DNA from: Exiguobacterium sp. s122
GTDB lineage: Bacteria; Bacillota; Bacilli; Exiguobacteriales; Exiguobacteriaceae
Direction of reading: 5' to 3'
Assembly: GCF_018618475.1 (NCBI RefSeq)
Contig: NZ_JACSMD010000001.1
Coordinates: 1-64,000 of the forward strand
Length of the DNA stretch: 64,000 nucleotides
Shown here: positions 4,061 to 19,318 of the stretch, piece by piece
Position numbering within the stretch: position 1 is the first letter of the stretch
Layout of the letters: every line of letters begins with the position of its first letter
The notes under the pieces: model-generated
Told to the model about the DNA's origin: nothing
The model's input: the letters and a program-made list of their open reading frames with translations, nothing else
The model's database searches: none
Position numbers and translations under genes: made by a program

Positions 4061-4107
4061 CTTGCCCATGCCGAATAGTCAGTCATACGAAATGGAGAGG
4101 GGAATCG

Positions 4108-4584
4108 ATGATGGGAATGGTTGGCGCATATATGCGACTATCGGCTGAAGAGTTGACAGCCTTGCTTCAAGAACCGGACGACTTCGAAGAATTTTTGGAG
4201 GACGAGGCACGGCAAACCGATATCGATAAGGCGTGGCACGGACTTTACTTTTTATTGACCGGGGAAACGGATTTGGACGAGATTGATCGGCACTCGCTCG
4301 GGAAAGTCGTGTTTGGCGGCGACGTCCTCGACGAGGAGACAGGTATCGCTTATTTGACACCATCGGAAGTGGCGGACTTGTCGAGTCGGCTTCAATACAT
4401 TGAAGTCGAGTCGCTTGAAGCGCGCTACGATGTCACGACGATGAATGCACATCAGCTGTACCCGTTCGAAAACGAGTGGGGTGTAGAAGAAAAACAGTAC
4501 TTGCTTGAACAGTTCGATGAGCTGAAGCGCGTCTTCAAACAAGCGGCAGACGAGAGCGAGGCACTCGTCACATGGATCGGGTAA
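4108..4584 (+). CDS. DUF1877/YfbM family protein
   Basis: A 158-residue soluble acidic protein. The pattern GM.GAYMRLS.EEL..L near the N-terminus, D.DKAWHGL.FLLTG in the middle and HQLYP...W at about residues 112-120 matches YfbM/DUF1877. The function is unknown. Two ATG codons (4108, 4111) compete; 4108 follows GGAGAGGGGAATCG. The 3' end overlaps the next GNAT gene by 13 bases, indicating co-transcription. Confidence 0.78.
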   Translation: MMGMVGAYMRLSAEELTALLQEPDDFEEFLEDEARQTDIDKAWHGLYFLLTGETDLDEIDRHSLGKVVFGGDVLDEETGIAYLTPSEVADLSSRLQYIEVESLEARYDVTTMNAHQLYPFENEWGVEEKQYLLEQFDELKRVFKQAADESEALVTWIG

Positions 4585-17123: not shown

Positions 17124-17666
17124 ATGATGCCAAAACGAAAATTTGCCAACCGACGTGACTGGGAACGGATTCTTGAACACCGCTATGCCCAGATGGACGT
17201 TCATGACGAGCATTTCTCAGGGACGGTCGCCCTATTTCAAATCGATGCAGTCCGGGCCCCACAGTATAAACAACATAACGGAGAGGAATTCATCGTGGCC
17301 GATGCGGGTTATGCATGGCTTCAATATTTCCCGGACAACGAACCGTTCGGGGTGACGGTCATGTTTGATGACGCAGGCCATATCGTGCAATGGTACATTG
17401 ATATCGTCCAAGCGATTGGCTATGAGGACGGAATCCCCTATATGGACGACTTGTTGCTCGACATTTTAGTCTTCCCGAACGGGGACATCGTCCGAAAAGA
17501 CGAAGATGAATTCGAGGAGGCGAGGTTGACGGGCGAATTGACACCGGAACTCGTCGTCAGCGGCTGGCGTGATTTCGAACAGACGCTCGACCGCATCGAA
17601 CGCCGCGACTTCGTCTACTTTGACCTTGCACAAGGGCATTACGAGACGTTGAAGCAAATGCTTTGA
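17124..17666 (+). CDS. DUF402 family protein
   Basis: A 180-residue soluble protein with the DUF402 barrel pattern: D.GY.WLQYFPDNEPFGVTVMFD, then WYIDI, D.PYMDDLLLDIL and PNG....DEDE. The acidic D..Y.D..L.D cluster resembles that in nucleoside tri-/diphosphate phosphatases of this family (NtdP), so a metal-dependent phosphatase is possible but unproven. Two ATGs (17124, 17127) follow AAGGAG; either could be used. Confidence 0.78.
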   Translation: MMPKRKFANRRDWERILEHRYAQMDVHDEHFSGTVALFQIDAVRAPQYKQHNGEEFIVADAGYAWLQYFPDNEPFGVTVMFDDAGHIVQWYIDIVQAIGYEDGIPYMDDLLLDILVFPNGDIVRKDEDEFEEARLTGELTPELVVSGWRDFEQTLDRIERRDFVYFDLAQGHYETLKQML

Positions 17667-17716
17667 ACACGCGGCTTCCTTTGATACAGTGAAAGAAAAC
17701 TGCAGGGGGATCAACT

Positions 17717-18847
17717 ATGAGACAGATTGACATCGATACGTGGCCACGAAAGAAGCACTACGAGTTTTTCAAGGCGTTCGCCGCCCCGCACTTTAACGTG
17801 ACGGCAACGCTCGACGTCACAACATTACATACGCATGCGAAGACGACCGGACAATCGTTTTTCAAGCTGTTTTTGTACGGTGTGGTCAAGACGGCGAACG
17901 CGATTCCGGAGTTCCGATACCGCATGCGCGGAGAGACCGTCGTCGAGCATAACGTCGTCCATCCGTCATTCACCGTCATGATGGACGAGGATGTGTTCAA
18001 CTTTTGTACCGTCTCGTTTAAAGAGTCATTCCCAGCGTTTATGGAGACCGTTGCGACGCGAATGGAAGAGACGAAGCAAAACGTCTACGTGGGAGACGAA
18101 GAGTCGGATGACTTGCTGTTTATCACAAGTGTGCCATGGGTGTCGTTCACAAGTATCAGTCATCCCATCAACGATGAACAGCACGATAGCGTCCCACGCA
18201 TCGCTTGGGGAAAATTTACGACAACGGGAGACCGGATGATCATCCCACTCTCCGTCCAAGCCCACCATGCGCTCGTCGACGGGGTGCACGTCGGCCGGTT
18301 TTATGAGGAACTTCAGACGTGGCTCGATGATTTGAGCGATTTACAAGTACCGGTCCGCGTCGAGGAGAAAGGACTCGACGAAGCGATTCGTCTCCGCGAG
18401 AATGGCGAGCTCGAACGCGCCAAACAGTTGCTCCTCATGTTGCTCCGCCAAGACGAGAAGAATCCTCGCCTGCACGCGCACTGTGCGTGGTGCTACGACG
18501 CGCTCGGGGAAGAGCGACAAGCCGTCCCGCATTATGAACGAGCGATTCGGCTCGGCCTCGCCGGAGACGAACTACGGGAGACATACATTGGGCTCGGCAG
18601 CACGTATCGGGCGCTCGGCCGTTATGACGATGCCGAAGCGTTGTTCACGAAAGCAATCGAACAGTTCCCAGATATTGCAGCGCTCAAAGTGTTTCAAGCG
18701 ATGACGCGCTACAACCTCGGACGTCACGAGGAAGCGACCGGTGCGCTCCTGGAGCTCCTCGCGAGTCCGGAGACCGATGACAGCATCAAACGCTATCGTC
18801 GCGCCATCGCGTTTTACGCACGTAATCTAAACGAGACGTATGATTAA
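17717..18847 (+). CDS. CAT-type acetyltransferase domain fused to TPR repeats
   Basis: A 376-residue two-part protein. Residues 1 to about 208 match the chloramphenicol acetyltransferase fold: RK.HYEFF near the start, F.YGVVK.ANAIPEFR, HPSFT, and the catalytic motif HHALVDGVHVGRF (about residues 182-194). Residues about 215-365 form three to four TPR-like helical pairs (EAIRLRENGELERAKQLL, HAHCAWCYDALGEERQAV, LGSTYRALGRYDDAEALF). Standalone CATs are about 215 residues, so the TPR tail is an addition. The catalytic His is intact; chloramphenicol may not be the substrate. It is read as one frame with no stop at the junction. Confidence 0.88.
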   Translation: MRQIDIDTWPRKKHYEFFKAFAAPHFNVTATLDVTTLHTHAKTTGQSFFKLFLYGVVKTANAIPEFRYRMRGETVVEHNVVHPSFTVMMDEDVFNFCTVSFKESFPAFMETVATRMEETKQNVYVGDEESDDLLFITSVPWVSFTSISHPINDEQHDSVPRIAWGKFTTTGDRMIIPLSVQAHHALVDGVHVGRFYEELQTWLDDLSDLQVPVRVEEKGLDEAIRLRENGELERAKQLLLMLLRQDEKNPRLHAHCAWCYDALGEERQAVPHYERAIRLGLAGDELRETYIGLGSTYRALGRYDDAEALFTKAIEQFPDIAALKVFQAMTRYNLGRHEEATGALLELLASPETDDSIKRYRRAIAFYARNLNETYD

Positions 18848-18857
18848 GGAGAACCGA

Positions 18858-19292
18858 ATGATTACACTGCAACCGATCACGGAACAAAACTGGTATACGT
18901 GTTGTCAACTCACGTTGAGTGATGCGCAACAAACGTACATGGAACCGAATGCGATTTCCCTGCTACAGGCGACGTATGAACCGACGCTGCGGGCGCACGC
19001 GATTTATGAAGACGACGCGATGGTCGGTTTTCTCATGTATAACACGGTGCTCGAAGAGTTAGACGCGCGCTGGGTGTATCGCATCATGATCGATCAGGCG
19101 CATCAAGGGAAAGGAATTGGACGCCAAGCGACCGAACTCATGCTCGAGGAGATGGTACAGCTTGGAACGGAACCGATCGTCGTCGGCTATCACCCTGACA
19201 ACAAAGGAGCGCATCGATTGTATGCAAGCTTGGGCTTTGTCGACGAAGGCAATCGCTTCGGGCGGGAGATGGCGGTTATTCGCCGTAAATGA
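18858..19292 (+). CDS. GNAT acetyltransferase (SAT-like)
   Basis: A 144-residue GNAT protein resembling spermine/spermidine acetyltransferases: ITLQPITEQNW, AIYEDDAMVGFLMYNT, WVYRIMIDQAHQGKGIGRQA (acetyl-CoA loop) and NKGAHRLYASLGF. It is related in layout to the gene at 11969. ATG at 18858 is preceded by AAGGAGAACCG; the in-frame ATG at 18840 would overlap the preceding gene. Probably co-transcribed with the CAT-TPR gene. Confidence 0.85.
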   Translation: MITLQPITEQNWYTCCQLTLSDAQQTYMEPNAISLLQATYEPTLRAHAIYEDDAMVGFLMYNTVLEELDARWVYRIMIDQAHQGKGIGRQATELMLEEMVQLGTEPIVVGYHPDNKGAHRLYASLGFVDEGNRFGREMAVIRRK

Positions 19293-19293
19293 C

Positions 19294-19318
19294 AAGACGA
19301 GGCAACTCGTCTTTTTTT
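19294..19318 (+). terminator. Intrinsic terminator before mhqR
   Basis: Eight-bp stem AAGACGAG / CTCGTCTT, GCAA loop, T run. Confidence 0.93.

Follow-up and report, generated by a model that had tools for sequence, protein, structure and literature searches.

In Exiguobacterium, a CAT domain (an acetyltransferase of the chloramphenicol type) and a TPR module of the BH0479/TPR_5 kind form one protein, a real and conserved genus-level domain fusion whose architecture is new although both component families are known. The same module is attached elsewhere to enzymes of other kinds, and from the sequences we count at least three apparently separate enzyme fusions. This repeated joining to enzymes, rather than the genus-level fusion itself, is the more interesting part of the result.

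The fusion lies in the window (the whole stretch of DNA analysed, 64,000 nucleotides) as one uninterrupted ATG-to-TAA frame of 376 amino acids (17717-18847, + strand), in which the CAT domain (residues 3-200) and the TPR module (about 218-376) are separated by a short flexible linker. The locus has the following features:

17124..17666, + strand: DUF402 gene upstream of the fusion, in 19/19 genus genomes (Pfam PF04167; genus search)
17682..17690, + strand: extended -10-like element TGATACAGT, possibly the fusion's own promoter (sequence conservation)
17704..17709, + strand: ribosome-binding site AGGGGG, 7 nt before the ATG (sequence)
17717..18325, + strand: CAT-like O-acetyltransferase domain, residues 1-203 (Pfam PF00302; model against CATI chains)
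18263..18283, + strand: catalytic HHALVDG, residues 183-189, in which His184 corresponds to CATIII His195 and Asp188 to Asp199 (alignments)
18326..18367, + strand: linker, residues 204-217, of low confidence at 212-217 (model; genus alignment)
18368..18844, + strand: TPR module of the BH0479/TPR_5 kind, residues 218-376 (Pfam PF12688; 3k9i_A; model)
18845..18847, + strand: stop codon TAA of the fusion, overlapping the AAGGAG of the next gene (sequence)
18858..19292, + strand: downstream GNAT gene, 144 aa (Pfam Acetyltransf_1; tblastn)
19294..19313, + strand: terminator-like hairpin and T run after the GNAT gene (scan)

Both halves are recognized independently. Pfam matches CAT (PF00302) at residues 3-200 with an E value of 8e-41 (140.7 bits against a cut-off of 23.5) and TPR_5 (PF12688) at residues 258-371 with an E value of 4.3e-17. 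In the PDB, the first sequence match of the front half is CATI (E 3.4e-33) and that of the back half is BH0479 (3k9i_A, a 117-residue TPR chain; E 4.7e-32 over 114 residues), which we take to be from Bacillus halodurans. The nearest named relative is Exiguobacterium alkaliphilum (94%), and the genome that carries the fusion has this one CAT only. The initial annotation, made from the letters alone, had proposed a single-frame fusion of a CAT domain bearing the HHALVDG motif to a TPR-like tail, and each of these elements was borne out: the frame is open throughout with both domains matched by Pfam, the motif is present, and the tail is helical in the predicted model over residues 218-376, about 158 residues.

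We modelled the protein with AlphaFold2 as a single chain, using an alignment of 50 rows that comprised the window and locus proteins. The model has a mean pLDDT of 90, drops below 50 only at residues 212-217 and reaches a pTM of 0.60. Its front half resembles CATI chains (1q23_B, for instance, with an E value of 1.1e-17 and a target TM-score of 0.88) at 31-32% sequence identity, and its back half is all helical, with four helical hairpins followed by C-terminal helices. In our reading, each domain is well folded and the joint between them flexible, with the position of one relative to the other uncertain. An excerpt of PMC12549896 describes CATs as trimers whose drug-binding pocket lies between subunits.

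The full fusion occupies one open frame without stops in 17 of the 19 genomes of the genus, at 71-100% identity, and the junction region (18326-18367) is open and in frame in all 17. A sequencing or assembly error at the junction is thereby ruled out, and neither of the outcomes that the initial annotation had named as fatal to its reading, such an error or absence of the fusion from relatives, was found. The two exceptions are G005, in which the gene is split over two contigs and has one stop, and G001, in which only the back half is present. For pairs among ten representatives where dS could be estimated, dN/dS was 0.054-0.156 in the CAT half and 0.024-0.096 in the TPR half, which indicates that both are under strong purifying selection; the linker differs in sequence across the genus, and its length varies by one residue. 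Searches of Bacilli, phylum genomes and plasmids found no CAT-TPR fusion outside the genus. CAT (PF00302) is present in 72 of 398 Bacilli genomes and, among the matches listed outside the window's genus, CAT frames are at most 291 aa long, too short for the fusion. When 398 phylum genomes were queried with the whole protein, 24 matched, with both halves covered only in the fusion's own genome.

In G001, the CAT half is reduced to a remnant with two stops (L030:1440-2064), and the TPR half retains 157 intact codons with its own GTG start, preceded by AAAGGAG. G001 lies within the fused clade of the module tree (support of 100/99 for its group), and this nesting among fused rows makes it a secondary loss of the CAT half from a fused ancestor. 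Between G001 and its sister clade synonymous sites are saturated whereas dN is only 0.094-0.115, a constraint that may have acted in part before the loss. Because the TPR half outlived the CAT half here, the tail is not merely an accessory of the enzyme; by the same token, the link between the two halves is not obligatory.

The TPR half belongs to a common family, and our literature searches, as far as these went, suggest that it is unstudied. The tail matches the TPR_5/BH0479 profile and carries the family signature; here the module sits within a 376-aa chain, whereas in G001 it has the stand-alone form typical of the family (about 161 aa). The module profile is found in 129 of 398 Bacilli genomes and 39 of 145 genera, and most frames with the module in genera other than that of the window measure about 160-185 aa and therefore stand alone. 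The tail shares its family with BH0479 (PDB 3K9I) and other TPR_5 proteins of Bacilli that stand alone, with no enzyme attached; one of these, from Listeria (WP_003722787), is 43% identical to the tail over 152 residues. Stand-alone copies also occur on plasmids of Vibrio (L251, L254) and Enterococcus (L252) at 42.6-44.2% identity, and transfer of the module across phyla is therefore likely. Four genomes from a single family (L082-L085) encode the module with an additional conserved stretch of about 170 aa on its C-terminal side, which in L083, the one scanned, has no Pfam match.

Beyond Exiguobacterium, the module is fused to two further kinds of enzyme. Among 19 genomes of the sister genus, six encode a GNAT-TPR fusion (L042-L046, L051), 11 encode the module alone, one (G029) has a broken copy and one (G033) has none; the front part of the fusions is Acetyltransf_3 by Pfam in the three scanned (L042, L043, L045). 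The broken copy (L050:1672-3597) has its GNAT and TPR parts in separate frames, with the TPR part cut short, and adjoins a 391-aa frame that is TnpB/OrfB-like by eye. A HAD_2-TPR fusion is present in G168 (L081), the single genome of its genus examined. We did not count a TPR-GNAT fusion in G183 (L086), as its GNAT half is cut short and unlisted by Pfam. In the CAT, GNAT and HAD fusions alike the module is always at the C terminus of the enzyme, whereas the catalytic domains are unrelated and the modules sit on separate branches of the TPR tree. In this tree of 102 rows, the CAT-fused rows form one clade (100/100) with G001 inside, the GNAT-fused rows form a separate clade within the sister-genus rows (100/98), and the HAD-fused row clusters with stand-alone rows from a different family (99/94); given the open deep forks, the CAT-fused and sister-genus copies may or may not be direct orthologues. 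Conservation in at least 80% of 63 stand-alone rows (the long-branch stand-alone L090, L096 and L197 being excluded) defines a family signature of 40 columns, of which the CAT-fused modules keep 35, the GNAT-fused 34, the HAD-fused 39 and G001 36.

The surroundings of the gene are partly conserved. An extended -10-like element (TGNTACAGT) lies shortly before the ATG in 17 of 17 aligned genus loci and also in G001, at a distance of 27-35 bp in the window; a generic promoter scan of the window did not list it, and from its conservation we regard it as a possible promoter of the fusion's own. The downstream GNAT gene is probably translated from the same message as the fusion. By tblastn, it is found in 12 of 19 genus loci and not in the other seven, which makes it an accessory and rules out an obligate partnership with the fusion; one of the 12 matches (L013, in G009) is partial (residues 94-143), with the start present, and that gene is probably damaged. 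Around other Bacilli TPR genes, a home-made GNAT profile matched 8 of 104 immediate, 7 of 109 second and 10 of 218 further neighbours, with no significant enrichment; these counts cover neighbours of at least 100 aa at loci numbered L081 and above, thus without L047-L049 and the family of the window itself, and also exclude the seven of 97 loci that lack a TPR frame (L083, L085, L087, L106, L117, L190 and L196). In two sister-genus genomes, a DUF402 gene lies on the other side of the TPR gene (L036:2043-2597, by Pfam; L041:869-1423, by likeness). At L115, an apparent DUF402 gene is two genes from the TPR gene (by eye). A RelA/SpoT-domain gene (PF04607) is found near the TPR gene of the sister-genus genome G023 (L042:4613-5803 and 4106-4582), two genes upstream and behind a MarR gene, and in Listeria a RelA/SpoT-domain gene (PF04607; L253:3168-3836) is divergently adjacent to the TPR gene.

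On balance, and with modest conviction, we favour the explanation that the TPR half is a partner-binding adaptor that brings the fused acetyltransferase to its partner. Repeated fusion of an intact module to unrelated enzymes is a classical sign of a separable binding unit, and we favour an adaptor because one module recurs at the C terminus of unrelated enzymes while keeping its own conserved signature. The CAT half would form the usual trimer of its family, with active sites at the subunit interfaces, so that one TPR module per chain on a flexible linker would give three copies per trimer. Each module would do in the fusion what it presumably does alone, that is, bind a partner protein, and this binding would steer the acetyltransferase to the partner or to a complex holding the true substrate. 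Counting against an adaptor are the lack of GNAT enrichment at stand-alone TPR genes, the loss of the CAT half in G001, the 11 of 19 sister-genus genomes with an unfused module and the confinement of the HAD case to one genome. The suggestion of the initial annotation that the tail might target acetylation gains indirect support from the presence of the same module on GNAT and HAD enzymes and loses some from the species in which the TPR half outlived the CAT half.

A neutral fusion, in which a CAT gene once preceded a TPR gene and the stop between them was lost, would leave two halves that are each useful and a link without function. We hold this to be unlikely, albeit worth serious attention: it accords with the survival of the TPR half alone in G001, where it has a ribosome-binding site and GTG start of its own beside a CAT remnant with two stops, with the variable sequence and length of the linker, with close CAT relatives that stand alone (L202-L206 and L209, 46-55% identity) and with the unfused module copies elsewhere, but it does not readily explain why 17 of 19 genomes retain the fused state although synonymous divergence among them is nearly saturated, or why enzymes acquired the module on at least three occasions, each time at their C terminus.

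Could the protein instead be an ordinary chloramphenicol-resistance enzyme whose tail merely aids folding or assembly? The catalytic apparatus would allow it. The fusion shares with type A CATs (CATI, 1NOC/3U9F; CATIII, 3CLA; PF00302) the fold, at 31-32% identity to CATI, the HHxxxDG motif, the catalytic Ser and the Arg/Asp pair. By alignment, all 11 fused CATs examined and all seven close stand-alone ones keep His184, Asp188, Ser146 and Arg11; we take their CATIII equivalents to be His195, Asp199, Ser148 and Arg18. Two of these, Ser148 and His195, are named for CATIII in an excerpt of PMC12549896. The mechanism is thus most likely CAT-like, as judged from these residues.

Unlike type A CATs, however, the fusion has about 160 extra C-terminal TPR residues, a CatA score below cut-off and different pocket residues. 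It reaches 143 bits against the curated cut-off of 270 for the CatA equivalog (NF000491), which a Bacilli CatA control passes with 308 bits, and it also misses the NCBIfam cut-offs for CatA-like 1-3 (130 against 300, 74.5 against 250 and 75.7 against 275). The positions equivalent to the CATIII drug contacts Tyr25, Leu29 and Cys31 are Phe, Ala/Asp and Pro. The closest CAT relatives found are stand-alone CAT-like proteins of Bacilli/Bacillota (the six above together with L243 and L244; 46-55% identity), which differ from the fusion in having no TPR half and frames of 209-258 aa; three that were scanned are likewise below the CatA-type cut-offs, and the neighbourhoods of nine close stand-alone CAT genes, inspected by eye, offered no hint of function. 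The gene is chromosomal and genus-wide, behind the DUF402 gene in 19 of 19 genomes, and of 72,556 plasmid records 1698 matched but none covered 80% of the query, which rules out a mobile resistance gene. An excerpt of PMC8706201 reports a chloramphenicol MIC of 8 ug/mL for Exiguobacterium strain Helios, which may or may not carry the fusion gene. On the question of chloramphenicol ACETYLTRANSFERASE, chloramphenicol as a substrate of the fusion is not supported by these comparisons, the activity implied by the initial annotation is doubtful given 143 bits where CatA demands 270, and we consider a resistance enzyme with a helper tail quite improbable. Domain content alone is no ground for labelling such a gene a chloramphenicol-resistance gene.

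CATs are known for acting on small hydroxyl substrates in a pocket between subunits. This counts against a protein acetyltransferase in which the TPR half would deliver proteins or peptides to the catalytic site, in loose analogy with NatA, and although the two acetyltransferase folds that carry the module are unrelated and NatA offers a precedent (in an excerpt of PMC5467210, its TPR subunit Naa15 surrounds the GNAT subunit Naa10), we deem this very improbable, as CAT is not a GNAT, the fusion has only four hairpins in place of a TPR ring and is in this part far smaller than Naa15, the module also occurs on a phosphatase and the linker is flexible.

Returning to the adaptor, a broader form of it, which we put forward tentatively and rate as improbable, is that BH0479-like TPR proteins are a general adaptor of Bacilli acting on one conserved partner, and that CAT, GNAT and HAD, unrelated enzymes that modify metabolites, became hard-wired to act there. 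Nucleotide signalling is a candidate setting in view of the RelA/SpoT-domain genes that lie near the TPR gene in Listeria and the sister genus. That the module was fused repeatedly, to two unrelated acetyltransferase folds and a phosphatase, provides a functional lead for a common TPR family. If the fusion does target its enzyme, this would be a CAT-fold enzyme guided by docking to a protein, and the fused forms could be used to isolate the binding partner of the unfused TPR protein.
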